DNA of 64,000 nucleotides, taken from contig NZ_JAMQVC010000002.1 in assembly GCF_023721415.1 (NCBI RefSeq), positions 496,001 to 560,000 on the forward strand, written 5' to 3'. The translations under genes and the position numbers were made by a program. Below the pieces are notes generated by a model, which was not told the DNA's origin, searched no databases, and saw only the letters and a list, made by a program, of their open reading frames with translations. Positions 2,608 to 16,069 of the stretch are shown piece by piece. How positions within the stretch are numbered: the first letter of the stretch is position 1; each line of letters starts with the position of its first letter. The DNA is from Galbibacter mesophilus (GTDB lineage Bacteria; Bacteroidota; Bacteroidia; Flavobacteriales; Flavobacteriaceae).

Positions 2608-3644
2608 AACAGACAATCAACGATAAACCGCACAGAAGATATAATATTTTAACAGGGGAGTGGGTGCTGGTTTCACCGCATCGCACGAAACGTCCGTGGC
2701 AAGGTAAAAAGGACAAAAAGACCGAGCTTTCCAAAGAAACCTATGATCCAAACTGTTATTTGTGTCCAACAAACGAAAGAGCCAGTGGTGAAACAAATCC
2801 CGATTACCAAGGAACGTATTCTTTTGTAAACGATTTTGCAGCGCTTTTGCCCGATGTGGAGGAGGAAACCTATGAAAACGGACTCCTAAGAGCGCAAACA
2901 GAAAGGGGAATTTGTAAAGTAGTGTGTTTTTCGCCAAACCATGCGCTCACGCTGCCATTAATGGAAGTTGAAGATATTACTGAAGTTGTTAAACTTTGGA
3001 AAAAAGAATACAAAGAATTGGGCGGCAAGGATGGCATTAACCATGTACAGATTTTTGAAAACAAAGGTGCAGTGATGGGCTGTAGTAATCCGCATCCACA
3101 TGGCCAAATCTGGTCTCAGTCTTCCATCCCGGAAGAAGTTCAGAAAAAGCAAAGCCAACAAAAAAAACATTGGGAAAAGGAGAAACGAAGTCTGTTACAG
3201 GATTACCTAGCGCAAGAATTGGAATTAAAAGAACGAATCCTTTTGGAGAACGACCACTTCGTTGCTTTAATACCTTACTGGGCGGTATGGCCTTATGAGG
3301 CTATGATTATACCAAGGAAACATTACCAAAATATTGCCCAACTTAATGAGGAGGAAGAAAAAGCATTTGCTGCTATTTTGAAGAAGCTGACTATTATGTT
3401 TGATAATCTTTTTGAAACATCTTTTCCTTATTCTTCCGGAATCCATCAGGAGCCAACGGATGGGGAGCATCACCCAGAATGGCATTTTCACATGTCTTTT
3501 TATCCACCTTTATTACGTTCCGCAGAAGTGAAAAAATTTATGGTTGGGTATGAAATGTTTGCAAATCCGCAACGGGATATTACTGCCGAATCTGCTGCCG
3601 AAAACTTAAGAAAACTACCAACGGTGCATTATTCCTTGCAATAA
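2604..3644 (+). CDS. galT: Galactose-1-phosphate uridylyltransferase
   Basis: The 346-residue enzyme exchanges UMP between UDP-glucose and galactose-1-phosphate. The active-site motif HPHGQ is at residues 164-168, with the catalytic His at 166 (same position as in E. coli GalT). Zinc-binding cysteines occur in CYLC (51-54), and the second histidine cluster WHFHMSFYPP is near residue 295. It follows galK with an ATGA overlap and is followed by a strong terminator, so galKT is a two-gene operon. Together with galK it converts galactose to UDP-galactose plus glucose-1-phosphate; the epimerase must be elsewhere. Confidence 0.97.
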   Translation: MKQTINDKPHRRYNILTGEWVLVSPHRTKRPWQGKKDKKTELSKETYDPNCYLCPTNERASGETNPDYQGTYSFVNDFAALLPDVEEETYENGLLRAQTERGICKVVCFSPNHALTLPLMEVEDITEVVKLWKKEYKELGGKDGINHVQIFENKGAVMGCSNPHPHGQIWSQSSIPEEVQKKQSQQKKHWEKEKRSLLQDYLAQELELKERILLENDHFVALIPYWAVWPYEAMIIPRKHYQNIAQLNEEEEKAFAAILKKLTIMFDNLFETSFPYSSGIHQEPTDGEHHPEWHFHMSFYPPLLRSAEVKKFMVGYEMFANPQRDITAESAAENLRKLPTVHYSLQ

Positions 3645-3672
3645 GTATCTTAACCGTTTAGAATTCAAATTA

Positions 3673-3704
3673 AAACCCGTCTTCCTTTATTGGAAGACGG
3701 GTTT
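3673..3704 (+). terminator. Rho-independent terminator of galKT
   Basis: A perfect 13-bp stem AAACCCGTCTTCC / GGAAGACGGGTTT (3673-3685 and 3692-3704) encloses a 6-nt loop and is followed by a T-rich tail (GTTATTTTGATTTTTA). It lies 28 nt after the galT stop. Confidence 0.92.
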
Positions 3705-3786
3705 GTTATTTTGATTTTTACGTTTTTAATGAGGAAAGCCCAAGCATTTTCTAATGTTTATTAATAAGAGCAACATAAAGTTTCAT

Positions 3787-3830
3787 AACGGGGGCTTCGA
3801 CTCCCGAAGCTTCGGGACAGCCTGACAAAA
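3787..3830. repeat. Interspersed palindromic repeat (CCCGAAGCTTCGGG family), copy 1
   Basis: The intergenic sequence holds the 16-bp perfect palindrome TCCCGAAGCTTCGGGA (3802-3817), flanked by GGGGGCTTCGAC on the left and CAGCCTGACA on the right. The same 16 bp recurs at 9169-9184. The flanks resemble the short intergenic elements containing CTTCGACTC that are common in flavobacterial genomes. The rest of 3705-3873 holds nothing recognisable. Confidence 0.6.
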
Positions 3831-3873
3831 GGATTTTTTTAAAACCAGTAAAAAGTCATTAACCCAACTATTG

Positions 3874-4317
3874 TTATTGCTTAATCCGCTTATAGTTTTC
3901 AGAAAAAAGAGCATTTCCATCACTGTCTACCGTAATTTGACTGAAATAATTATTGCTTTTTTCAAGCTTAAAAGAAAACACACGCATCGTATCAATAATA
4001 CGCATCATGGAAGCCGAACCGTATTCAAGGCGTTCCACCAGTTTATCTTTTGTAGTAGAATAGGAACCATAACCAAACCATTCCACAGAATCTTTTGGTA
4101 CAAAGCGCGTCCACATAACTTTGTTATTTTGGTACATTTTTATTTGCCGGTAACCATCGGTGTTCTGTAAGGTGTCTGTAACCTTATTGTCATCATAAGT
4201 GTAGCGATTAACGAGTTCCCAAACACCTTCCAAAGAATTATCTGATAAATCTTTGGGACTCCCAGAGAGAAGGATAAGTGCAGAAAAAAAAACGAGTGGA
4301 TAGAATAATGTTTTCAT
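3874..4317 (-). CDS. Small exported protein, lipocalin-like (possibly DUF4488)
   Basis: The likely start is the ATG at 4315-4317, because the next residues (MKTLFYPLVFFSALILLSGS) form a signal peptide; the frame is open further upstream to 4401 but that stretch has no protein-like features. This gives 147 residues. The segment LEGVWELVNRYTY followed by QIKMYQNNKVMWTRF and YGSYS looks like the repeated beta-hairpins of small lipocalin-like proteins of Bacteroidota such as DUF4488. There is no Cys near the cleavage site, so it is probably periplasmic rather than a lipoprotein. Its ligand is unknown. It is convergent with the galT terminator region and divergent from trxB. Confidence 0.65.
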   Translation of the reverse strand: MKTLFYPLVFFSALILLSGSPKDLSDNSLEGVWELVNRYTYDDNKVTDTLQNTDGYRQIKMYQNNKVMWTRFVPKDSVEWFGYGSYSTTKDKLVERLEYGSASMMRIIDTMRVFSFKLEKSNNYFSQITVDSDGNALFSENYKRIKQ

Positions 4318-4613
4318 TTGTTTAATTTTTAAAGTTGTAAAAGGGGTCATCCCTGCCAATTGGTAGGTGTAAATCACCAAAAGAAATCGGTGAAGGCTCA
4401 TAGGGTTGTTGCGCCGCTTTTTTGTGATATGTATAATTATATCGAATAAAAAGCAGTATTAATTTACGAATAATCAATTAATAACGGAAGAAATTTGATG
4501 ATTTTTTACATGTTGAATAGAATATTGTTCCTAATTCTTAAGTGCCATAAATGTTGTTGATGGGTTGATAATAACTTTTCATAGTTTCACGGTAAGGTTT
4601 TTAGCAAAAATCC

Positions 4614-4621
4614 TACTTTTG
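4614..4621 (+). promoter_or_regulatory. -7 promoter element of trxB
   Basis: TACTTTTG matches TAnnTTTG and lies 30 nt before the chosen trxB start, predicting transcription from about 4628. This rules against longer N-terminal versions of TrxB starting at 4565. The remaining 4318-4613 stretch between the divergent genes is AT-rich and shows no other recognisable element. Confidence 0.6.
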
Positions 4622-4651
4622 TTATGTACAAATTATAAGAAAGGATATATC

Positions 4652-5620
4652 ATGTCTGAAAAAGTTGAAAGAATAAAATGCTTAATAATTGGGTCTGGTC
4701 CTGCGGGATATACGGCAGCCATTTATGCTGCTCGAGCAGATATGAAACCGGTTATTTATACAGGATTGGAGCCCGGAGGGCAATTAACCACTACTACGGA
4801 AGTTGATAACTTTCCTGGCTATCCAGAAGGAATAGATGGTCCATCCATGATGATACAACTACAACAACAAGCGGAGCGGTTTGGCACTGAAGTGCGCATG
4901 GGAATGATTACTTCTATCGAATTGAGTGATGAAGTAGGAGGAATCCACAAGGCAGTAGTTGATAATACCACCAATATTGAAGCCGAAACGGTTATAATTT
5001 CCACGGGAGCTACAGCCAAGTATCTTGGTTTGCCAAGTGAGCAACGTTTACGAGGTGGTGGAGTGTCTGCCTGTGCAGTTTGTGATGGTTTTTTCTTTAA
5101 AGGTCAAGATGTAGCTATTGTTGGTGGTGGTGATACAGCCGCTGAGGAAAGCACCTATTTAGCAAATATTTGTAATAAAGTAACTCTTTTGGTAAGAAAA
5201 GGGGAGATGAGAGCTTCTAAAGCAATGCAACACCGAGTTAATAATACACCAAACTTGGAAGTTCGTTATTACACTGAAGTGGATGAAGTTTTAGGAGACC
5301 AAGTTGTTGAAGGTTTACGCTTGGTAAACAATCAAACGGGAGAAAAAGAAGAGATAAAAATTACCGGATTATTTATCGCTATTGGACACAAACCTAATAC
5401 CGATATTTTTAAAGGTCAGCTGGAAATGGATGAAACTGGGTACATCATTACCAAAGGAAAGTCTACAAAAACCAATAAACCAGGTGTTTTTGCCAGTGGA
5501 GATGTTCAAGATAAAGAATACAGACAAGCGATTACTGCTGCTGGAACTGGCTGTATGGCCGCTCTAGACGCAGAGCGTTACTTAGCTGCTGTAGAAAGCA
5601 AAGAAGAGGTGGAGGCATAA
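4652..5620 (+). CDS. trxB: Thioredoxin-disulfide reductase
   Basis: The 322-residue flavoprotein transfers electrons from NADPH through FAD to thioredoxin in the cytoplasm. FAD-binding GSGPAG is at residues 14-19, the redox pair CAVC at 141-144, the NADPH-binding GGGDTAAEE near 157, and the C-terminal FAD motif (GVFASGDVQD) near 285. The length equals the low-molecular-weight TrxB family. The start at ATG 4652 is chosen because the promoter element lies just upstream and the protein begins MSEKVERIKCLIIGSGPAG, as in homologues. It is a single-gene unit closed by a terminator. Confidence 0.97.
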   Translation: MSEKVERIKCLIIGSGPAGYTAAIYAARADMKPVIYTGLEPGGQLTTTTEVDNFPGYPEGIDGPSMMIQLQQQAERFGTEVRMGMITSIELSDEVGGIHKAVVDNTTNIEAETVIISTGATAKYLGLPSEQRLRGGGVSACAVCDGFFFKGQDVAIVGGGDTAAEESTYLANICNKVTLLVRKGEMRASKAMQHRVNNTPNLEVRYYTEVDEVLGDQVVEGLRLVNNQTGEKEEIKITGLFIAIGHKPNTDIFKGQLEMDETGYIITKGKSTKTNKPGVFASGDVQDKEYRQAITAAGTGCMAALDAERYLAAVESKEEVEA

Positions 5621-5640
5621 TTGTCCGCATAAATTAAATA

Positions 5641-5678
5641 AAAAAACCTGCAAGATTTTACTCTAGCAGGTTTTTTTT
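5641..5678 (+). terminator. Rho-independent terminator of trxB
   Basis: The stem AAAAAACCTGC / GCAGGTTTTTT (5641-5651, 5666-5676) has a 14-nt loop and ends in an eight-T run. It may also serve the convergent gene that ends at 5705. Confidence 0.85.
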
Positions 5679-5704
5679 ATGCTTTAAATAGATTAAGCTG
5701 GAAA

Positions 5705-6433
5705 CTATCCTTTGGAAATATCCCCAGAGCCTGAAACTTTACTATCCTCTTTTGTTGGATTTCCGTAGTAATCAATATCTCCAGAGCCTGAAACACGGGC
5801 TCTAAGCATACCGTCGCAATGTACCTCAATATCTCCAGAGCCAGAGATGCTAGCATCTACGTTTACGGCTTTTAATCCTTTGGAATCGATGTCCCCAGAA
5901 CCTGAAATACTGCATTCGTAATCGGTTGTTTTTCCGCTTAGTTCAATATCTCCAGAACCTACCAAGCTACTTTTTACAGAAGTCGCCTCTACGCTAAGCG
6001 TAACATCACCAGAACCTGTAAGACTGGTTTTAAAATTGTTTGTCTTTATTGTGCTTTTAGAAACCACATCCCCAGAACCCGACAAGGAAACGGCATCTAA
6101 ACTTTCAAAGGGCACTACTACCAATATTCCCTTGTTATAGCTCGGCTTTAATTCGTATCCTTCCTCGGTTTTGATTATAAGTTCTCCGTTTTTTACCTCG
6201 GTGATAATATGTTTAATCAAATTTTCTTCCGCAGAAATGCTTATGTTTCCTTCTTTGCCGCCAATTAAATCTACATCAAAAGAGCCAGCTACGCTTACTT
6301 CGCTATAATTTCCTACACTTCTTTCAACCGTAGTTTTGTTCCCGTTTCCTTTCACTTTCTTTCCGCCCCACCATTGTGCATTTAAGGCAGAAAAACTGAG
6401 TATGGCCAAGCCGATTGTTATTAGTTTTTTCAT
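5705..6433 (-). CDS. DUF2807 (GIN domain) adhesin-like exported protein
   Basis: The 242-residue protein has a signal peptide (MKKLITIGLAILSFSALNAQ) and then a repetitive beta-strand region typical of DUF2807, the head GIN domain once annotated as a putative autotransporter adhesin. The motif GSGD(I/V) occurs seven times between about residues 118 and 242 at roughly 18-22 residue spacing, which is expected for a right-handed beta-helix with one turn per repeat. It is probably periplasmic or outer-membrane associated. It is the last gene of the sigma-factor operon (start at 9013), separated from the gene before it by a 330-bp gap with tandem repeats. Its role is unknown; in this context it is an envelope-response output. 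Confidence 0.88.
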   Translation of the reverse strand: MKKLITIGLAILSFSALNAQWWGGKKVKGNGNKTTVERSVGNYSEVSVAGSFDVDLIGGKEGNISISAEENLIKHIITEVKNGELIIKTEEGYELKPSYNKGILVVVPFESLDAVSLSGSGDVVSKSTIKTNNFKTSLTGSGDVTLSVEATSVKSSLVGSGDIELSGKTTDYECSISGSGDIDSKGLKAVNVDASISGSGDIEVHCDGMLRARVSGSGDIDYYGNPTKEDSKVSGSGDISKG

Positions 6434-6763: not shown

Positions 6764-7834
6764 TTACTTTCTATAAAAACTCACCCCGCCGTAATCGGTG
6801 GAAATACTAACTTGATTTTTACCTTTACTTCCGTAATAGCCTTCGTAATAATTATCTGTTGATTTTTGTCGCTTAATGGTGTAGTTAAAGTCGGTATCAC
6901 CACTAAGGCCTGCATATTCCAAATCTATTTTGAAATCGAAATGGTAATTGCTATTGTAACCGACTTTAATACCGGTGTAATCACTTTTTATCTGAAGGTC
7001 TCCTGCGTCTGCTGCCATTTCTTCAATTCGTATGGAACCATAATCGGAAGTTACATTTACATTGCCATGGACCGTACCGAAGCGTGTGGTTAGATAATCA
7101 CCTGAACCACTAATATTGTTCGCTTTTTCAATTTTAATACTTCCGTAGTCACAGGTATATTCCACATTTTTAGCTCTTTTTACTTCAGAATTGGTGTAGT
7201 CGGCATTAAGTGTAAGATTGCCCACTTCATTGATTTCAAAAGAGGAATAATCAGCATTAATTTTACCGCTCTTCATAAATTCTATGGTAGATTTAGAGGT
7301 GTAATCAAACTTTAAAGAATTGTTTTCAGCATGAAGACTTCCAATTTCTAGTTTTCCATAGTCGCATCGAATGTTCGCCACGCCTTTGCTTTCATCCAAA
7401 TAAATCCCGCCATAATCGTTATTGAGGTCTAATGTATTGCCTACAGGAACTTTTACGGTGTAATTTATTTCCATGCTTACATTGTTATTGCCCCAACTCC
7501 AGCCACTTTTTTCGAAAATGGTTTTAGCAGATACCAAATTGCTACTTCCTTGAAATTCAACATTTATCTCATCCAGCTTTTTCTGTGCTTTATCTTCGTT
7601 ATTGCTGTTTGTTTTTATGTGAACTTCTATAACTGTTCTGTTTTCCGTCCACGAGGTGATGTAAAGATTCCCGTAACTGTTATTTAGTTTTAAAAGTGCA
7701 TTCGGACTCACTTTAAACTCTTTTTTTATCTTTTTCTCCTTGGTGTATTTGCCATTCCAGCCAGGGCCAGATGCAACACTAAGTAAGGGAATACAGATGA
7801 AAAGTAATACGATTTTATATAATTTGATTTTCAT
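6764..7834 (-). CDS. Exported beta-strand-repeat protein (DUF4097-like)
   Basis: The 356-residue protein begins with a signal peptide (MKIKLYKIVLLFICIPLLSV, cleavage near SVASG). The mature part consists of repeated short beta-strand units with the recurring pattern DYG or DYT (LNNDYGGIYL, RCDYGKLEIG, NADYTNSEV, CDYGSIKIE, SDYGSIRIE, SDYTGIKVG), which suggests a beta-helix like DUF4097/DUF2807 proteins. It overlaps the anti-sigma gene upstream by 20 nt, so the two are coupled. It probably sits in the periplasm or at the cell surface. The function is not established. Confidence 0.8.
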   Translation of the reverse strand: MKIKLYKIVLLFICIPLLSVASGPGWNGKYTKEKKIKKEFKVSPNALLKLNNSYGNLYITSWTENRTVIEVHIKTNSNNEDKAQKKLDEINVEFQGSSNLVSAKTIFEKSGWSWGNNNVSMEINYTVKVPVGNTLDLNNDYGGIYLDESKGVANIRCDYGKLEIGSLHAENNSLKFDYTSKSTIEFMKSGKINADYSSFEINEVGNLTLNADYTNSEVKRAKNVEYTCDYGSIKIEKANNISGSGDYLTTRFGTVHGNVNVTSDYGSIRIEEMAADAGDLQIKSDYTGIKVGYNSNYHFDFKIDLEYAGLSGDTDFNYTIKRQKSTDNYYEGYYGSKGKNQVSISTDYGGVSFYRK

Positions 7835-8381
7835 TATTTGAGGTATTTAAATTTTTAACTTCTTCTATTTGGTCTAAAACGTCTTCTAATAAACTTATTC
7901 GGGTTTGAAAATTGATAATCATGGCATGCAGTATTTTCTTGCTATTACCATCATTTGCCAAGTCTTCTTCTAACTTTTTGTAGTCTTTTTCAAGTTTTTG
8001 AATTTGCAACATGGCATCTGAAACAATTTTTTTGGTTTCTGGAGTGGATTCTGCTTCAATCTTCTCCATTTCTTCACTAATAATAGAAGCGAAGTAAAAT
8101 TGTGTTTTCTGTACCTCAGTAGGTTCTTCCGCGATAGCGTTCACTGCATCAGTTGGGCTTTTAAAGAATTGTATTCCAACAATCATTAAAACTACGACGG
8201 AAGCTGCTATGGAAAGCCATACCCATTTGTTGCTGCCATTTTTCTTAATTGTATGTTTGTTATTTTTGTTTGCTTCTAACTTTTCCAAGAATCTATTTTC
8301 GTGTCCGGTATTGGGAACTTCGTTGTCCCATTGGCCTTCGAGCTTTTCAAATAGTTCTTCTATATTGTCTTTTTTCTTCAT
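7815..8381 (-). CDS. Putative anti-sigma factor, single-pass membrane protein
   Basis: The 188-residue protein has a hydrophilic N-terminal part (1-50) that would face the cytoplasm, one membrane segment (about 52-70, WVWLSIAASVVVLMIVGIQF), and an extracytoplasmic C-terminal part with predicted coiled coil (about 118-175, many Glu/Lys/Leu). It lies 68 nt after the ECF sigma-factor gene and overlaps the next gene. That position and topology are those of membrane anti-sigma factors. No zinc-binding HxxxCxxC motif is present, so the assignment rests on context and topology. Confidence 0.72.
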   Translation of the reverse strand: MKKKDNIEELFEKLEGQWDNEVPNTGHENRFLEKLEANKNNKHTIKKNGSNKWVWLSIAASVVVLMIVGIQFFKSPTDAVNAIAEEPTEVQKTQFYFASIISEEMEKIEAESTPETKKIVSDAMLQIQKLEKDYKKLEEDLANDGNSKKILHAMIINFQTRISLLEDVLDQIEEVKNLNTSNNENQII

Positions 8382-8449
8382 CTCATCAAAAAATTATAAA
8401 TCATTGATTCGTTTTTTTGTTTATCAAACTGCACGGATTTTACTTTTGT

Positions 8450-9013
8450 TCAAGGCTTTTCAAAAGCCTCGGCTTGTAATTTTTGCCGCAAACTTTCTTT
8501 TGCCCTCGAAATTGTGGTCCTACAATTTGCATAGCTTACTTGCATAATATCTCCTATTTCTTCATAATCGTATCCCTCGATTAAGTAGAGGGTTAAAGCA
8601 ATTCTGTAATTGTCCTTCAGCATATTCATGGTCTGCAACACTTTTTGAGCCTTTATGTTGGTCAACTCATAATCAGGTTCAACTTCATCTTTGTCTTCAA
8701 CCCTATACATTACATCATCCAGCGGAATATTGTTTTGGTTTTGTTTTCTATAATGATGAATGCTGTTGTTAATTACAATACGTTTCAACCAAGCACCAAA
8801 TGTAACTTCAGCTTTAAAGCTATCGAGCTTTGTAAATGCGTTTAAAAATGATTCTTGCATTACATCTTCAGCTTCAAAAGAATCTTTTACAATTCGTAGG
8901 GCAGTGTTGTACATTGCTCTGTAATAACGATTGTAAATCTCCATTTGGGCAGCTTGTTTTCCTTGCCTGCACAAAACCAATAGTTGATCAGTATGTAATT
9001 CTTGTTGGCTCAA
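8450..9013 (-). CDS. ECF-type RNA polymerase sigma factor
   Basis: The 187-residue sigma-70 family protein has region 2 at about residues 25-95 (YRAMYNTALRIVKDSFEAED, then MQESFLNAFTKL) and region 4 at about 130-180 (LTLYLIEGYDYEEIGDIMQV followed by NCRTTISRAKE). The start is a TTG at 9011-9013; an internal ATG at Met24 would remove the conserved N-terminal segment LVLCRQGKQAAQ, so the TTG is preferred. It heads an operon with a probable anti-sigma factor and two exported beta-repeat proteins, which suggests it answers an envelope signal and drives its own operon. No terminator is visible directly after it. Confidence 0.92.
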   Translation of the reverse strand: MSQQELHTDQLLVLCRQGKQAAQMEIYNRYYRAMYNTALRIVKDSFEAEDVMQESFLNAFTKLDSFKAEVTFGAWLKRIVINNSIHHYRKQNQNNIPLDDVMYRVEDKDEVEPDYELTNIKAQKVLQTMNMLKDNYRIALTLYLIEGYDYEEIGDIMQVSYANCRTTISRAKESLRQKLQAEAFEKP

Positions 9014-9168
9014 AAAGGTATTCTTTATACTAAAGATAACGTTTGCTAAAGATTGTTACAGTTTTTTATTTTTTTAATAAAAATTTTGCTGAAATAGAAT
9101 ACATGGAAACCAATCATGCTCTAAATAATATTTGTTCATTTTTTCCATTGATGAAAAAACGAACCAAA

Positions 9169-9184
9169 TCCCGAAGCTTCGGGA
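9169..9184. repeat. Interspersed palindromic repeat, copy 2
   Basis: TCCCGAAGCTTCGGGA is identical to 3802-3817. It is flanked by ACCAAA and CTAGGC, so only the core is shared with copy 1 apart from scattered bases. Confidence 0.65.
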
Positions 9185-9233
9185 CTAGGCTTGCTATAAA
9201 AACATAAGAAAATACTACAGAACCCTCCGCCAC

Positions 9234-9285
9234 TGATAAAAATAACTCGCCCTTCCTACGGTCGGTCTCAAACAGATTTTTATCA
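9234..9285. repeat. Inverted repeat with 32-nt spacer
   Basis: TGATAAAAAT (9234-9243) and ATTTTTATCA (9276-9285) are exact reverse complements. The spacer (starting AACTCGCCCTTCCTACGGTC) is much richer in G and C than the surroundings, which suggests an inserted small element. Confidence 0.5.
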
Positions 9286-9467
9286 TTTGTCCATACTGCT
9301 TCCTTGATTTTCAATATTTTTATAGACAGGCCAAAACAAACCTCAACAGTAAAAAAAACTATAACACATATCTCCTTTGTACCCAAATGATACTTTGTCA
9401 AAAATATTTAGGATACTATTTCTTTGAAACGTAAACTGTTTGAAACTGTTGATGATAGAGCAAAAAA

Positions 9468-9495
9468 AATCCCATAAGCTTCTGCCTATGGGATT
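9468..9495 (-). terminator. Terminator of the polyamine operon
   Basis: The stem AATCCCATA / TATGGGATT (9468-9476, 9487-9495) has a 10-nt loop. On the minus strand it is followed by an eight-U run (A run at 9462-9469 of the plus strand). It lies 30 nt after the stop of the small acidic protein gene. Confidence 0.88.
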
Positions 9496-9524
9496 CTGTA
9501 AATTGTATTTGTATTGAATTTCCG

Positions 9525-9827
9525 TTAATCTTCGTCTTCTTCGTCTTGATTTTCGGGAATTTCCATTTCGTCGGAATTGATGTCTTCGCTATTGTCAAAA
9601 TCATCGTCCTCTTCATCGAAGTTTTCCATGGTATTTGCCAATCGGGTACTAACTTTCACTAAGTAAATCGTATCTTCTGTACGAACTTCCACAGCTTCTA
9701 CCGTTTCATTGTTGGCGTTTTTAAACTTAATGATGTCATCATCGCCATATCCGTCGGGATACTTTTCCACAAGCATCGTAAGGATTTCATTGGTTAATTT
9801 TTTGTAATCTACTATTACACGTCTCAT
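9525..9827 (-). CDS. Small acidic conserved protein (family often mislabelled DNA primase)
   Basis: The 100-residue protein has a structured N-terminal part (MRRVIVDYKKLTNEILTMLV, then PDGYGDDDII and VEAVEVRTEDTIYLVKVS) and a highly acidic tail (from about residue 68 nearly all D, E, N and S). I know this family as conserved in Flavobacteriia and often wrongly labelled as DNA primase; it lacks any primase motif. It is the last gene of the operon, 98 nt after the deoxyhypusine-synthase-like gene and just before the terminator. One can imagine that the acidic tail binds polyamines or polyamine-rich ligands, but nothing in the sequence proves this. Confidence 0.85.
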   Translation of the reverse strand: MRRVIVDYKKLTNEILTMLVEKYPDGYGDDDIIKFKNANNETVEAVEVRTEDTIYLVKVSTRLANTMENFDEEDDDFDNSEDINSDEMEIPENQDEEDED

Positions 9828-9925
9828 ATAGTTGATAATTATATTCGGTTATCTAGTAATTTATGGAACTTATTAAATGACCTATTTTGATGGAATAAAT
9901 ATATATGAATATTTTTTTTCGGCAA

Positions 9926-10903
9926 TTACATATCTAATAAATATGCAAAAATTAATGGCGCTACAATGGTGGCATCCGATTCTATGATAAACTTAGGCGT
10001 ATCGATGTCTAATTTACCCCATGTAATTTTCTCATTTGGTACGGCCCCAGAATACGAACCATAACTCGTTGTAGAATCTGAAATCTGACAAAAATAGCTC
10101 CAGAAAGGAGTGTCTTCCATTTCCATATCTTGATACAGCATTGGTACCACACAAATAGGAAAATCTCCAGCAATTCCTCCACCAATTTGGAAGAAACCAA
10201 CTCCATTTTCAGAATTTTTTGTGTACCAATCAGCTAAATAGCCCATATATTCAATACCGCTTTTTACGGTGGAGGCTTTTAACTCGCCTTTCATCACATA
10301 AGAAGCAAAAATGTTACCCATAGTACTGTCTTCCCAACCAGGAACAACAATTGGTAAATTCTTTTCGGCCGCAGCGTACATCCAAGAATCTTTAAGATCG
10401 ATTTCGTAGTATTCTTCTAAAACTCCTGAAAGCAACATTTTATACATGAATTCATGTGGAAAATAGCGTTTACCATTCGCCTCAGCGTCTTTCCATATCT
10501 TATAAATATGTTTTTGCAGTCTTCTAAAAGCTTCCTCTTCAGGAATACACGTATCTGTAACCCTGTTTAATCCTTTTTCGAGTAAATCCCATTCTTCTTT
10601 AGGCGTAAGGTCACGATAGTTTGGTACTCTTTTGTAATGTGAGTGTGCCACTAGATTCATGATGTCTTCCTCTAAATTGGCGCCAGTACACGAGATTATC
10701 TGTACTTTGTCCTGACGAATCATTTCAGCAAAAATCTTTCCCAGTTCTCCAGTACTCATCGCCCCGGCAAGGGTGACCATCATTTTAGCGCCGTTTTCCA
10801 ATTGGTCTTCGTAGCCTTTGGCAGCATCTACCAAAGCAGCCGCATTAAAATGCAAGTAATATTTTTCTATAAAGTTGGAGATAGCTCCTTTATTCTTCGT
10901 CAT
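9926..10903 (-). CDS. Deoxyhypusine-synthase family protein, probable homospermidine or related aminobutyltransferase
   Basis: The 325-residue protein belongs to the deoxyhypusine synthase family: it has the NAD-binding core (TLAGAMSTGELG, SCTGANLEEDIMN), the segment GFFQIGGGIAGDFPICVVP, and the active-site lysine at about 297 in ITWGKLD (VSWGKI in eukaryotic DHS). Bacteria have no eIF5A of the usual kind, so modifying it is unlikely. Family members can transfer the aminobutyl group of spermidine to small amines, as in plant homospermidine synthase. The gene overlaps speB by 14 nt and lies in the arginine-to-putrescine operon, and homospermidine is a known main polyamine in several flavobacteria. 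I therefore infer a polyamine synthase, not a protein-modifying enzyme. Confidence 0.85.
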   Translation of the reverse strand: MTKNKGAISNFIEKYYLHFNAAALVDAAKGYEDQLENGAKMMVTLAGAMSTGELGKIFAEMIRQDKVQIISCTGANLEEDIMNLVAHSHYKRVPNYRDLTPKEEWDLLEKGLNRVTDTCIPEEEAFRRLQKHIYKIWKDAEANGKRYFPHEFMYKMLLSGVLEEYYEIDLKDSWMYAAAEKNLPIVVPGWEDSTMGNIFASYVMKGELKASTVKSGIEYMGYLADWYTKNSENGVGFFQIGGGIAGDFPICVVPMLYQDMEMEDTPFWSYFCQISDSTTSYGSYSGAVPNEKITWGKLDIDTPKFIIESDATIVAPLIFAYLLDM

Positions 10904-11777
10904 CGTCGTCTATGTTTTTAGAGTTTGCGTACTTAAATTTATAAGCTAACATTTTATAATACAACTTTGCAGCTAGAAAATCAGAAGATTTTTCATTTTC
11001 ATTTGGACAAAGCTCTACAATATCAAAGCCAACTACATTTTTCTTTTTGAAAACTTTTTTCAGGTATTCCAACGTTTCATACCAAAGCATTCCGCCCGGT
11101 TCTGGAGTTCCTGTTGAAGGAAGAATAGACGGATCGAACGCATCCAAATCGATTGTTATGAAAACATTTTCTGTCATTTGATGAATGGAATCATCTACCC
11201 AATCGTCGCTTCGATTAATATCTTCAGCAAAGTAGGTTTGATCTTCTATCATGTTATCCAATTCCGAAACATCCATACTACGGATTCCCACTTGGATAAG
11301 CTTTGTTTTCTGACTGGCTTCATACACGGCACAAGCGTGGTTACATTTAGAGCCTTCGTATTCCTCTCGCAAATCGGCGTGTGCATCGATTTGTAAAACG
11401 GTAAGATCGTCAAAACTTTCAGCGAAAGCACGTATGGAACCTATGGAAATAGAGTGTTCGCCACCAAAAAGGGTAACAAACTTATCTTGTTTTATATAAT
11501 TTTTAGTGATTTTATGTACCGCTTCTACCATTTTTTCAGGAGAGCTGTTTTCGGTAACAGGGGGAGCTAAGTACACGCCTTTTTTATAAGGTTCACTTTT
11601 GGTTTCAATATCGAAAAGCTCCATATTTTCAGATGCTTCCAAAAAAGCCTTTGGGCCTTTATCGGCACCTTTTTGCCATGTGCTCGTACCATCATAGGGC
11701 ACGGGAATAAGCACTACACGGGCATCGTCTATACGAGCGTATTTCTCAGGAATTCCGGCATAATTTTTTTTACTCAT
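10890..11777 (-). CDS. speB: Agmatinase (ureohydrolase family)
   Basis: The 295-residue enzyme hydrolyses agmatine to putrescine and urea. The manganese-binding motifs of the arginase/agmatinase family are intact: GGEHS (near residue 105), DAHAD (near 131), and DLDAFDPS (near 212). It overlaps the speA gene upstream by 8 nt and the deoxyhypusine-synthase-like gene downstream by 14 nt. With speA as direct neighbour, agmatine rather than arginine is the expected substrate. Confidence 0.92.
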   Translation of the reverse strand: MSKKNYAGIPEKYARIDDARVVLIPVPYDGTSTWQKGADKGPKAFLEASENMELFDIETKSEPYKKGVYLAPPVTENSSPEKMVEAVHKITKNYIKQDKFVTLFGGEHSISIGSIRAFAESFDDLTVLQIDAHADLREEYEGSKCNHACAVYEASQKTKLIQVGIRSMDVSELDNMIEDQTYFAEDINRSDDWVDDSIHQMTENVFITIDLDAFDPSILPSTGTPEPGGMLWYETLEYLKKVFKKKNVVGFDIVELCPNENEKSSDFLAAKLYYKMLAYKFKYANSKNIDDDDEE

Positions 11778-13164
11778 AGCCTAAAATTTTTAAAAAGTCG
11801 TTTGCAGTTTGTTGTTCAGAAAAAAGTTTAGTGGTAATATTCCCTTCATCATCTTTATCTATTAAGACATGTTTTGGAGAAGGAATTAAACAGTGTTGTA
11901 GTCCGCCAAAGCCACCAATGGTTTCTTGATATGCTCCAGTGTTGAAAAACCCAATATAAAGCGGTTTAGTTCTGCTGTATTTTGGTAAATAAATAGCGTT
12001 CATGTTTTGCTCAGAATTGTAATAATCGTCGCTGTCGCAGGTAAGACCGCCCAACAAAACCCTCTCGTACTCATCGTTCCAACGGTTTATGGCCAACATG
12101 ATAAAGCGTTTGCTTATCGCCCAACTATCTGGTAGGGTAGTGATGAAAGAAGAATTAATCATATTCCATTTCTCCCTGTCGTTCTGCTGCTTTTGGTATA
12201 ACACTTCATAAATGGCACCACCACTTTCTCCAACGGTAAAACTACCGAACTCAGTAAAAATATTTGGTACAGGCACATCTGCTTCCTCACAGGCAGTTTT
12301 AATCTGAAAAATGATTTCGTTGATCATGTATTCATAGTCATATTCAAATGCCAACGAATTTTTAATAGGAAAACCACCACCTATGTTTAAGGAATCTACC
12401 GTCGGACAAATTTTACGTAATTGGATATACACTTTTAAACATTTTAAAAGCTCATTCCAATAGTAAGAAGTGTCCCTAATTCCCGTATTTATGAAAAAAT
12501 GAAGCATTTTTAGGTTCACTTTTTCGTTGTCTTTGATTTCCTTGTTGTAAAACGGAACTATATTTCTATAACCAATTCCCAATCGACTTGTATAAAACTC
12601 GAATTTTGGCTCTTCTTCCGAAGCAATTCTAATCCCCACGTTAAAAGGTTCATGAATGGCTTCATCCAAAAGGTTTAACTCTTCGTAATTATCAATTATA
12701 GGAATACATTTTTTATGGGAACCGTTAATCAATTCTGCAATATTTTCAATGTATTTATCCCTTTTAAAACCGTTGCAAATTACGTAGTTGTCTTTAGTAA
12801 GCTTTCCTTTTGCAATTAAACTTTTAACAATATCGATATCAAAAGCAGAAGAGGTTTCAATATGGATATCATTTTTTAAGGCCTCGTTTAGAACATGACT
12901 AAAATGAGAGCTTTTCGTGCAATAGCAATAGTGATAATCTCCTTTGTAATCATGCTTTTCAATAGCATTTTTAAACCAATATTGTGCCTTCTTTATATTG
13001 TCGGAAATTTTTGGCAAGTACGTGAATTTCAAGGGAGCCCCATATTTTTCAACCAGATCCATAAGATCTATATCATGGAACTTTAATTGATCTTCTTCTA
13101 GTGTAAACTCCTCTTGTGGGAAATAGTAGGTTTGATCTATAAGATCGAAGTACTTCGTCTTCAT
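11770..13164 (-). CDS. speA: Arginine decarboxylase, short form (PLP, alanine-racemase fold)
   Basis: The 464-residue enzyme belongs to the fold III PLP decarboxylases. The PLP lysine lies in YCYCTKSSH (near residue 83), the glycine-rich phosphate-binding part in SLNIGGGFP (near 264), and the C-terminal substrate-side motif in LTCDSDDYY (near 375). It is shorter than E. coli SpeA (about 630-660 residues), which is usual for Bacteroidota. It makes agmatine from arginine and is the first gene of the polyamine operon. Ornithine or diaminopimelate decarboxylase activity would be the alternatives, but the following agmatinase argues for arginine. Confidence 0.88.
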   Translation of the reverse strand: MKTKYFDLIDQTYYFPQEEFTLEEDQLKFHDIDLMDLVEKYGAPLKFTYLPKISDNIKKAQYWFKNAIEKHDYKGDYHYCYCTKSSHFSHVLNEALKNDIHIETSSAFDIDIVKSLIAKGKLTKDNYVICNGFKRDKYIENIAELINGSHKKCIPIIDNYEELNLLDEAIHEPFNVGIRIASEEEPKFEFYTSRLGIGYRNIVPFYNKEIKDNEKVNLKMLHFFINTGIRDTSYYWNELLKCLKVYIQLRKICPTVDSLNIGGGFPIKNSLAFEYDYEYMINEIIFQIKTACEEADVPVPNIFTEFGSFTVGESGGAIYEVLYQKQQNDREKWNMINSSFITTLPDSWAISKRFIMLAINRWNDEYERVLLGGLTCDSDDYYNSEQNMNAIYLPKYSRTKPLYIGFFNTGAYQETIGGFGGLQHCLIPSPKHVLIDKDDEGNITTKLFSEQQTANDFLKILGYE

Positions 13165-13461
13165 AGTTGCTTTTTTGTAATTATAAAAAAATGATATTTA
13201 TTTTAAATTAAATTTTTGTTATAAATAACATTTTTTAATCAAATACGTAGATAGGCGGGGAGGAATGCTATAGTTTGTACAGCACTTTTTTTAATAATTT
13301 CTTCGGAAGTTAAATTTAAGAACCGAGATCTCGTTCTGCGAGATACGTACAAATACGACTTCCTGATATCTGTAAACACGGCGTTTAAAAAACAGCTCAT
13401 TAAATTCTTTAAAATACAGTAACAAAAGTCACTATTTTTTTTAAATACACAAGAAAAAAAA
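13165..13461. other. Intergenic region upstream of speA
   Basis: This AT-rich 297-bp stretch lies between aroB (ending at 13462) and speA. It contains the perfect palindrome CGAGATCTCG (13324-13333) followed after 4 nt by TGCGAGAT, so alternative short hairpins are possible. It must hold the speA promoter, but I see no clear TAnnTTTG element. No coding sequence is visible. Confidence 0.5.
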
Positions 13462-14532
13462 TTATTTTTTGTAGTGTTCTAAAGATTTGAAAAGTAGTTC
13501 TTTACCAACAGTAACATCCAGCTTGGGCCTTCCAATGTCTTCCAAAAGCACAAAATTTACATTTCCGTGGGCATTTTTCTTATCAAATTTCATCAATTGA
13601 ATAATGCTCTCCATGTCTGCTTGACTAATATCCACCTTGTCAAAATAATTAAGAAAAGTAGTTTTAATAGTTGCTAGTTTTTCCTTCGGAAAGTTTAAGA
13701 GTTCAGCAGAAAGAAAGGTTTCCATAATCATTCCAATGGCAATAGCCTCTCCATGTAAAAGTTTGTTTTTATCTGAAGATTGTAAGAAATAAGATTCTAT
13801 AGCATGCCCAAGAGTATGGCCGTAATTTAAAATTTTTCGCAATCCATGTTCTCTTGGATCTTCTGTAACCACTTCATTTTTTATAACTACAGAGCGATGA
13901 ATTAGGCTGTCTAAATCTTCAGGGGTCAGCGCATCTAATTTTTGTAGCTTTTCCCAATATACTTCATCATATATGAGTCCGTGTTTAAGCATTTCTGCCA
14001 ATCCGCTTCGAAGTTCGTTGGGAGGCAAAGTTTCCAAATATGCGGTATCAATCAATACCATCATCGGATTGATAATAACCCCAACTTGGTTTTTTAACGG
14101 ACCTAAATCTACGCCTGTTTTTCCACCAACCGAGGCATCTACCATAGCAAGTAGGGTAGTGGGAATGTTTAAAAAGTCGATTCCGCGCATGTACGTGGCT
14201 CCTACGAAACCGCCAAGATCCGTAACAACACCGCCACCAAGATTTATCAATAGTGATTTACGATCACCTCCTAGTTCAGAAATAATACTCCAAACCTCAC
14301 TGCATGTTTCAATTTGTTTTTGCTCTTCCCCAGCTTCAATTTCAATAATCTCAATATCATAGGTATTTTCTAGCTTCCCCAAAAAGTTAGGCAAACAATG
14401 TTTGTGAGTGTTTTCATCAACTAGGATAAATACTTTGGAATAGTTTTTTATTTCAAGGTGATTGTTGAGTTCCTGATAGGATTTTTCATTGAAATGTAAT
14501 TGACAACCGTGGCTGGAAATGGATGTAAGCAT
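13462..14532 (-). CDS. aroB: 3-dehydroquinate synthase
   Basis: The 356-residue NAD- and metal-dependent enzyme makes 3-dehydroquinate from DAHP (second step of the shikimate pathway). Family motifs are seen in order: GGGVVTDLGGFVGATYMRG (NAD site, near residue 98), the GGKTGVDL loop (near 137), EMLKHGLI with the first metal ligands (near 185), and NYGHTLGHAIE with the histidine ligands (near 240). Length is normal. It is transcribed away from the proline dehydrogenase gene and stands alone. Confidence 0.96.
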   Translation of the reverse strand: MLTSISSHGCQLHFNEKSYQELNNHLEIKNYSKVFILVDENTHKHCLPNFLGKLENTYDIEIIEIEAGEEQKQIETCSEVWSIISELGGDRKSLLINLGGGVVTDLGGFVGATYMRGIDFLNIPTTLLAMVDASVGGKTGVDLGPLKNQVGVIINPMMVLIDTAYLETLPPNELRSGLAEMLKHGLIYDEVYWEKLQKLDALTPEDLDSLIHRSVVIKNEVVTEDPREHGLRKILNYGHTLGHAIESYFLQSSDKNKLLHGEAIAIGMIMETFLSAELLNFPKEKLATIKTTFLNYFDKVDISQADMESIIQLMKFDKKNAHGNVNFVLLEDIGRPKLDVTVGKELLFKSLEHYKK

Positions 14533-14902
14533 GCTGTTTTATTGAAGTTTTTATTTGAACCTGAGTTCGATTTTTATAATAAAGTCAAAATTAATAAAAG
14601 TATTTGGTTAGAAGGTAGGTTTTCTAAGGGATAGCGAGCTATTTATTGAAAACTTAAAGCTGGCGACAAGTATTTTTGTTAAAAAAATCAAATCTTATCG
14701 ATTTTATTTAACGATATATTGAAGTTTTTTAACACCTGACTCTCGGATATTTCAATGAAATAAGTCTCATAACTCACTACCCAAAAGCGTTTTAACAAAG
14801 TTGAAATAAGCAATCTCAGGTTTAAGACAAAATAAAGAGAATTTGTTGTAAAAATATATATTTTCGAAAAGTATATTTGCAAAAATTTTAGGAGCATATT
14901 GA
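14533..14902. promoter_or_regulatory. Divergent intergenic region with the proline dehydrogenase promoter
   Basis: No gene is visible in these 370 bp. At its right end TTG (14846-14848) and TATATTTG (14872-14879) are 23 nt apart, within the 17-23 nt range of the Bacteroidota promoter. Transcription would start near 14886, giving a short leader to the ATG at 14903. The rest is AT-rich without a recognised element. Confidence 0.6.
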
Positions 14903-16069
14903 ATGAAGAACTTTTTTGATAACACAGAGATCGCTTTTAGACTGAAAAGCGATGCTGAGCTTGATAGAGCCTACTTTTTGTTTAAGATGATAGCACACCA
15001 ACCTTTGGTTAAAATTGGAACAGCTATGACCAATTTCGCGATAAAAGCGCATTTGCCAGTAGATGGTTTGATTAGAGCAACGGTTTTTGATCATTTTTGC
15101 GGAGGAGTAAGCGAATTGGATTGTATGAAAACAGTTGATGCCCTTTACACGGCAGGAGTATGCTCCGTTTTGGATTATTCCGTGGAAGGAAAAGAAACTG
15201 AAGAACAGTTTGATGCCGTAGTGGCACGAACTCTCAAGCTTATCGATTTTGTGAATGAAAAGGAAGCTATCCCATTTGCGGTATTTAAACCCACGGCCAT
15301 GGGACGTTTCGATTTATACGTAAAAGTAGGAGACGGTTCGAAGCTTACAAGTGAGGAAGAAGCGGAATGGGAGCGTGTTGTGAACCGTTTTAATACCGTT
15401 TGTAAAAAAGCGCATGAACTCGGAGTTTCCCTTCTCATTGATGCGGAGGAAAGTTGGATGCAAAAAGCTGCCGATAGTATTGTTGATGAGATGATGATGA
15501 AGTACAATAAGGAAAAGGCAGTGGTTTTCAATACGCTTCAAATGTACCGATGGGACCGCATGGAATATTTGGAGAGACTTCATAAAAAAGCGAAAGAAGA
15601 AGGCTTTATTATTGGTATGAAGCTCGTTCGCGGTGCGTATATGGAAAAAGAAAACGACCGCGCTGAAGAAATGGGGTATCAAACGCCTATCTGTGAATCT
15701 AAAAAGGCTACAGATGATAACTTCAATAAAGGAGTTCGCTACATGATGGATAATTTAGATATTATGGAGCTCTTCTTGGGAACTCATAATGAAGAAAGTA
15801 CCTTATTGGTGTTGGAGTTGATGGAAGAAAAAGGAATTTCTAAGGATGATAACCGTATATGGTTCGGACAGTTATATGGAATGAGTGATCACATAAGTTA
15901 CAATCTCGCACATAAAAAGTATCACGTTGCCAAGTATTTACCATTCGGACCTGTACGCGATGTAATGCCTTATCTAATACGCCGTGCAGAGGAAAATACT
16001 TCTGTGGCTGGGCAAACTACAAGGGAGCTAACCTTATTGGCCGCTGAGCGCAAGCGTAGGAAAATGTAA
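14903..16069 (+). CDS. Proline dehydrogenase
   Basis: The 388-residue FAD enzyme of the PRODH family oxidises proline to pyrroline-5-carboxylate. The (beta/alpha)8 barrel signatures are present: FKPTAMGRFDLY (near residue 133), LIDAEESWMQ (near 180), MKLVRGAYMEKE (near 245, with the substrate-binding Arg-Gly-Ala-Tyr), and the C-terminal YLPFGPVRDVMPYLIRRAEEN with the RRxxEN proline-binding motif. It is the monofunctional form, so the pyrroline-5-carboxylate dehydrogenase must be encoded elsewhere. The gene stands alone between the divergent aroB and a terminator shared with the rel gene. Confidence 0.95.
   Translation: MKNFFDNTEIAFRLKSDAELDRAYFLFKMIAHQPLVKIGTAMTNFAIKAHLPVDGLIRATVFDHFCGGVSELDCMKTVDALYTAGVCSVLDYSVEGKETEEQFDAVVARTLKLIDFVNEKEAIPFAVFKPTAMGRFDLYVKVGDGSKLTSEEEAEWERVVNRFNTVCKKAHELGVSLLIDAEESWMQKAADSIVDEMMMKYNKEKAVVFNTLQMYRWDRMEYLERLHKKAKEEGFIIGMKLVRGAYMEKENDRAEEMGYQTPICESKKATDDNFNKGVRYMMDNLDIMELFLGTHNEESTLLVLELMEEKGISKDDNRIWFGQLYGMSDHISYNLAHKKYHVAKYLPFGPVRDVMPYLIRRAEENTSVAGQTTRELTLLAAERKRRKM

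Follow-up and report, generated by a model that had tools for sequence, protein, structure and literature searches.

A predicted homospermidine operon built around a bacterial deoxyhypusine synthase homolog in Galbibacter mesophilus

The window analyzed here is the whole 64,000-nucleotide (nt) stretch comprising positions 496,001 to 560,000 of contig NZ_JAMQVC010000002.1 of Galbibacter mesophilus (Flavobacteriaceae). On its minus strand it carries a compact unit of four genes, coding for a SpeA-like decarboxylase, a SpeB-like ureohydrolase, a homolog of deoxyhypusine synthase (DHS; the gene is called dhs below), and a small acidic protein, which we discuss as a candidate operon for homospermidine synthesis (Table 1). 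The original prediction, made from the letters of this DNA, that these genes overlap or lie close together and end at one terminator was borne out: the overlap is 8 nt between speA and speB and 14 nt between speB and dhs, 98 nt lie between dhs and the gene for the acidic protein, and the terminator-like hairpin that probably ends the transcription unit lies 27 nt past the last stop codon. A terminator scan of positions 8500 to 14500 found 7 sites, against 3.4 ± 2.0 in shuffled sequences, so that the mere presence of a hairpin is weak evidence; the stem of this one is the longest among the scanned sites. A promoter scan limited to sigma-70-type patterns returned 13 matches against 22.5 in shuffles, and we claim no promoter.

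Table 1. Features of the four-gene unit (coordinates in the window)
Feature	Coordinates	Strand	Product or property
speA	13164-11770	minus	464 aa; open reading frame (ORF); PF02784; predicted to convert arginine to agmatine
speB	11777-10890	minus	295 aa; ORF; TIGR01230; predicted agmatinase, agmatine to putrescine and urea
dhs (type A)	10903-9926	minus	325 aa; PF01916; proposed putrescine-dependent homospermidine synthase
Small acidic-protein gene	9827-9525	minus	100 aa; no Pfam or NCBIfam match
Terminator-like hairpin	9497-9466	minus	14 pairs, 4-base loop, T tract

The SpeA protein belongs to the Orn/Arg decarboxylase family (Pfam, 3e-15) of pyridoxal phosphate (PLP) enzymes with the alanine racemase fold. 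Its best-matching NCBIfam models, which include PRK05354 and TIGR01273 (biosynthetic SpeA), are those of arginine decarboxylases, and it scores below their cutoffs (171 bits against 369 and 162 against 624, the latter for TIGR01273). It aligns with Escherichia coli SpeA (3nzq) in two parts, with about 97 fewer residues between them. The PLP lysine (K84) and the cysteine of the CDSD motif (C376) are kept in its relatives; in place of the ESGR of E. coli SpeA it has EFGS, the serine of which is common to 90 of 93 relatives. Because SpeA falls below the speA cutoff, arginine is suggested as its substrate by its partners, SpeB and AguA. SpeB is a member of the arginase family (Pfam, 8e-62) that exceeds the cutoff of the agmatinase model TIGR01230 (217.4 bits versus 174.3), and its metal-ligand motifs are conserved across 62 aligned proteins. 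We take the PLP lysine and CDSD motif of SpeA and the metal-ligand motifs of SpeB to have their customary functional roles.

The DHS-like protein matches PF01916 at 3e-44 (151.9 bits against a Pfam cutoff of 27), and a domain search retrieved this domain alone, PF03435 of the other homospermidine synthase (HSS) type being absent. It matched seven NCBIfam models, each of them below the cutoff, among them PRK02492 for caldomycin synthase (98.9 of 500 bits) and PRK00770 for SpeY-type enzymes, the homospermidine biosynthesis model, which we presume to cover the cyanobacterial enzyme. In a sample of 247 genomes from the phylum, PF01916 was found in 196, which we assigned by Pfam score to type A (89 genomes), the type of the window, type B1 (95), and type B2 (11), with one left unsorted (G216). 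When ten further proteins were compared with NCBIfam, three of type B1 passed PRK02492, three of type B2 passed PRK00770, and three of type A passed no model; the tenth (L070, from genome G128), which is B1 by score, likewise passed none. The name attached to the B1 proteins of these genomes may have been applied too widely, and one genome (G228) has two different B2-type genes (L065 and L066). We also built a maximum-likelihood tree from 54 proteins (33 of type A, 10 of B1, 10 of B2, and L070), in which a single branch, very long and supported at 100/100, separates type A from all the others; the tree program issued a long-branch warning, and the placement of L070 is unsure. Because archaeal and eukaryotic rows were left out, the tree is silent on the origin of type A.

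An alignment of 151 of these proteins (106 A, 34 B1, 10 B2, and L070) revealed that the lysine of the WGK motif (K297), E291, W295, and D192 are kept in all of them. They are among 31 positions near-invariant across all types, which also include G241 to G243, and another 47 positions are near-invariant in type A yet conserved and different in both B1 and B2. Of the residue pairings published for human DHS and CdmS, the caldomycin synthase of Thermus thermophilus (PMC10981699), the equivalent of CdmS Glu293 is Glu291 in the window protein, the human Asp243/CdmS Phe204 position is Asn197, the human Asp316/CdmS Leu286 position is Tyr284, and CdmS Ser67, which a docking model in the same paper proposes to bind the guanidyl group, corresponds to Ala48, an alanine in each of the 106 type A proteins. 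Following the GGG motif, archaeal (8put) and eukaryotic (8qzw) DHS chains have KHH, whereas the window protein has AGDF; the B1 and B2 rows shown have PKNF, and L070 has PRNW. One of the KHH histidines is His288 of human DHS, which we take to be catalytic. Since K297 and the adjacent E291 and W295 are invariant and the equivalents of Asp243, Asp316, KHH, and Ser67 are replaced, it appears that the lysine chemistry has been kept and the pocket rebuilt. The original claim of intact catalytic residues therefore stands for K297, E291, W295, and D192 of the DHS-like protein, for the metal-ligand motifs of SpeB, and for the PLP lysine and the cysteine of CDSD in SpeA, and has to be given up for KHH and the two aspartates of DHS and for the EFGS of SpeA. 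An AlphaFold2 model of the DHS-like protein, built with 28 close relatives, was poor (mean pLDDT, 57.3; residues 264 to 325 below 50) and was dropped as a basis for inference on fold or active site.

The gene order is widely shared. The loci compared were named ones retrieved with the dhs protein, the best 80 among 592 confirmed, and most bear Flavobacteriaceae names. In 79 of the 80, a same-strand speA lies 5′ of dhs, whether or not speB is present, and on account of this conservation the arrangement is not due to chance. The order speA-speB-dhs-acid accounts for 39 of these loci, speA-dhs-acid for 27, and speA-speB-dhs for 11; two have a second speA hit, and one has dhs alone. By-eye comparison of the neighbors in ten dhs loci, nine of them without an adjacent speA, revealed no partner common to all; three from one family (L043, L049, and L056) have a permease and other dhs neighbors in common. 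A dhs-less genome of the same family (G134) has the surrounding genes without the unit: positions 3475 to 6242 of its locus L218 hold, in the order of window positions 9525 to 16069, a proline-dehydrogenase-like ORF on the plus strand and an aroB-like ORF and the acidic gene on the minus strand, and exactly speA-speB-dhs is missing between aroB and the acidic gene (identities assigned by eye). This layout suggests that speA-speB-dhs is the functional unit.

A search of the 3.77-Mb host genome, as envisaged in the original prediction, returned no match for nspC (carboxynorspermidine decarboxylase), S-adenosylmethionine (AdoMet) decarboxylase, or spermidine synthase. The genome has two hits to PF03435. 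One is an ORF that we read by eye as glutamyl-tRNA reductase; the second has both saccharopine dehydrogenase domains and, compared with solved structures, retrieves saccharopine reductases at about 1e-60 but, up to an E value of 1, no chain of a homospermidine synthase. We therefore rejected an HSS elsewhere in the host genome, this saccharopine-dehydrogenase-like protein being a saccharopine reductase.

Across the phylum sample, of the 51 genomes that lack dhs, 9 have nspC above its cutoff, 29 have AdoMet decarboxylase, and 38 have one or the other; among the 196 that carry dhs, the corresponding counts are 1 (G125, of type B1), 23, and 24. For type A, 15 of 89 genomes have either gene, falling to 6 of 89 when matches below 100 bits are omitted. 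Since AdoMet decarboxylase homologs may be ornithine or arginine decarboxylases (PMC10407285), the counts for this enzyme are an upper bound. Such a pattern of replacement would be expected of a gene that supplies the cell with its triamine. In two type A genomes (G061, L055, positions ~6796 to 11588; and G187, contig C8, positions 444581 to 449309), speD and speE adjoin the speA-speB-dhs cluster, and these organisms may make both triamines or aminopropyl-homospermidine. Five genomes (G174, G206, G222, G245, and G088) have a small AdoMet-decarboxylase-like ORF about 2 to 3 kb from a spermidine-synthase-like ORF of 512 to 542 aa.

The supply of putrescine points in the same direction. With SpeB called by TIGR01230 above its cutoff and AguA and AguB called by our own thresholds (E values of <1e-50 and <1e-70), the 89 type A genomes divide into 38 with SpeB only, 33 with AguA and AguB only, 11 with both, and 7 with neither; in the family of the window (25 genomes) the corresponding numbers are 9, 12, 2, and 2. 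Two speA-dhs-acid loci (L221 in G057 and L222 in G084) come from genomes with neither a SpeB above the cutoff nor an AguA-AguB pair. That SpeB and AguA plus AguB exchange for each other implies that putrescine is the point at which the routes meet and, therefore, the likely substrate of the DHS-like protein. In genus g2, 12 of 14 genomes have AguA and AguB only. One member, G170, whose two genes have agmatine deiminase and N-carbamoylputrescine amidase as best models, pairs with Flavobacterium sp. NRK1 at 100/91 in the maximum-likelihood tree, and seven of the eight speA-dhs-acid loci listed are from Flavobacterium (the eighth is from a member of Flavobacteriaceae); on these grounds we infer that g2 is Flavobacterium. 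For Bacteroides thetaiotaomicron there is a published study of an N-carbamoylputrescine amidohydrolase (PMC10135574). In two Flavobacterium species, homospermidine was reported at 27.3 and 20.5 µmol/g dry weight, with putrescine at 0.2 to 0.7 and spermidine at 0.2 to 0.3 (PMC8570120), and a genome paper calls homospermidine the major polyamine of all Flavobacteriaceae (PMC3072086). In that family, the one of the window, PF01916 is present in 156 of 199 genomes, with best E values of 1.6e-38 to 1.9e-45, which is the range of type A.

On the basis of the gene content, the absence of other triamine routes, the replacement across the phylum, the exchange of SpeB with AguA and AguB, and the published profiles, we favor a pathway from arginine through agmatine and putrescine to homospermidine as the function of the operon, with a probability of roughly 0.78; the putrescine-then-homospermidine course of the original prediction is supported to this extent. 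The substrates, product, and steps are modeled on those of DHS, SpeY, and caldomycin synthase. SpeA would decarboxylate arginine to agmatine, which SpeB would hydrolyze to putrescine and urea. The DHS-like protein would use NAD to oxidize one putrescine and would hold the aminobutyl group as an imine on lysine 297, from which a second putrescine would accept it, reduction then yielding sym-homospermidine.

Several observations weigh against this pathway. The window protein reaches just 114.9 of the 450 bits set by PRK00770, and its active site, like that of type A in general, differs from those of the tested enzyme types. No AguA or AguB in the 247 genomes attains its NCBIfam cutoff, so that these calls rest on weaker matches, and even at the thresholds used the 7 type A genomes with neither SpeB nor the pair lack a complete route to putrescine. 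The Fisher P values for dhs versus spermidine-route genes (1e-17 when dhs of every type is counted, 1e-11 with type A alone) ignore kinship, and 13 of the 51 dhs-less genomes have neither of the alternative routes. The genomes of the profiled species themselves lay outside the gene survey. Finally, 43 of the 199 family genomes have no PF01916 (2 of the 43 with contamination above 5%), which is at odds with the claim that all members of the family make homospermidine.

The same end product could be reached by joining two agmatines to 1,9-bis(guanidino)-5-azanonane (caldomycin), from which SpeB would strip both guanidino groups. CdmS, a DHS homolog with a lysine in common with the window protein, works in this way in Thermus thermophilus, coupling agmatine and needing a ureohydrolase afterward (PMC10981699), and the speB of the window would supply such a partner. 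However, 33 of the 89 type A genomes have AguA and AguB with no SpeB above the cutoff, and profiled Flavobacterium still make homospermidine; as caldomycin could not be opened by the known route without SpeB, putrescine is the likelier substrate. The window protein also attains 99 of 500 bits on PRK02492, and has Ala48, Asn197, and Tyr284 in place of Ser67, Phe204, and Leu286 of CdmS. The argument from Ser67 is weakened by type B1, which keeps the serine yet has AguA and AguB with no SpeB in 81 of 95 genomes. Taken together, these points make the agmatine-coupling route quite unlikely for type A. A synthase like that of plants, which moves the aminobutyl group from spermidine rather than putrescine onto putrescine (PMC10981699), appears exceedingly improbable: no spermidine-making genes were matched in the host genome, and spermidine stands at about 1% of homospermidine in the two measured Flavobacterium species (PMC8570120).

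Eukaryotic DHS modifies a translation factor in human cells, and the window protein resembles it and archaeal DHS in its PF01916 fold family, WGK lysine, adjacent glutamate and tryptophan, and GGG motif. It might thus modify a protein lysine, for instance in elongation factor P (EF-P), which has been proposed as a possible target of bacterial DHS-like proteins (PMC6544042), or in the acidic protein, K10 and K58 of which are invariant in 78 of 78 sequences. Unlike true DHS, it lacks KHH and the two aspartates and sits among polyamine synthesis genes. Of 30 genomes searched for EF-P, 24 gave usable sequences (in 2 the ORF picked was wrong, and the script missed 4), and the loop reads KPGKG in all 24, of which 11 come from genomes with type A dhs and 13 from genomes lacking dhs; as the loop lysine does not track dhs, EF-P is weakly disfavored. 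In the acidic protein, about 70 residues form a conserved stretch and the acidic tail varies in length; the protein had no match in Pfam and NCBIfam searches and gave a model (pLDDT, 79.1) with which a fold search found no Protein Data Bank match at an E value of ≤0.001. Its gene lies 3′ of dhs in 68 of the best 80 loci, sometimes about 1.6 kb away. Among 67 chosen genomes it is present in 18, in 15 of 58 with dhs and in 3 of 9 without (G103, G134, and G041), and it occurs in all 11 searched from the family of the window, the match in G053 having a stop. The original prediction placed this gene in the operon; it does adjoin dhs but, being present in some genomes without dhs as well, probably has no part in the homospermidine pathway. 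We set aside EF-P and the acidic protein as targets on these grounds, and modification of a protein lysine, which would leave the mutual replacement of dhs and spermidine-route genes unexplained, is very improbable.

The homospermidine pathway that we favor has a close precedent in the SpeA-SpeB-SpeY pathway of Anabaena, in which SpeY is a bacterial DHS homolog (PMC10385936, PMC9992855, and PMC10407285). The three steps are those proposed here, a DHS homolog comes last, and no AdoMet-derived group is needed; the window differs in its short form of SpeA and in a DHS-like protein of another clade, which carries the type-specific positions noted above and reaches 115 bits on PRK00770, whose cutoff is 450 (for three further type A proteins the values are 121 to 128). 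The claim that a bacterial DHS homolog makes homospermidine is supported, with the amendment that SpeY-type makers were already known (PMC10385936). Proteobacterial HSS, which is related to carboxyspermidine dehydrogenase, turns two putrescines into homospermidine, the reaction proposed here, but the window protein, with PF01916 only, is not homologous to it.

The type A branch appears new, in a pathway type that is already known, which makes for a modest advance. We found no tested member of the branch and, in the open-access literature to which our search was confined, no paper assigning a homospermidine gene in this group. The protein A0A1H1NZ17 of Polaribacter sp. KT25b already bears the name homospermidine synthase (PMC12452284); its identity with a type A protein is unconfirmed. 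Homospermidine has long been used to characterize the group, and its distribution in Bacteroidetes was the subject of a paper of 2004 (cited in PMC10135574). It is conceivable, though unlikely, that type A is a third, separately rebuilt lineage of polyamine synthases with the DHS fold, belonging to Bacteroidota and differing from other types at Asn197, Asp247, Cys251, and Tyr284, with a mode of coupling or a combination of substrates unseen in SpeY, caldomycin synthase, and the plant enzymes, and that it gives the group its homospermidine chemotype. If the favored assignment is true, a large branch of DHS homologs becomes nameable and offers a natural comparison of one fold switching among protein lysine, putrescine, and agmatine. 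While the concept is an ordinary one, the finding should interest specialists in polyamines and in Bacteroidota. A type A dhs with 86% identity and the same gene order is also present (L145, positions 2657 to 3631) on a 4.4-kb contig of a Campylobacterales metagenome-assembled genome, which is perhaps misbinned.

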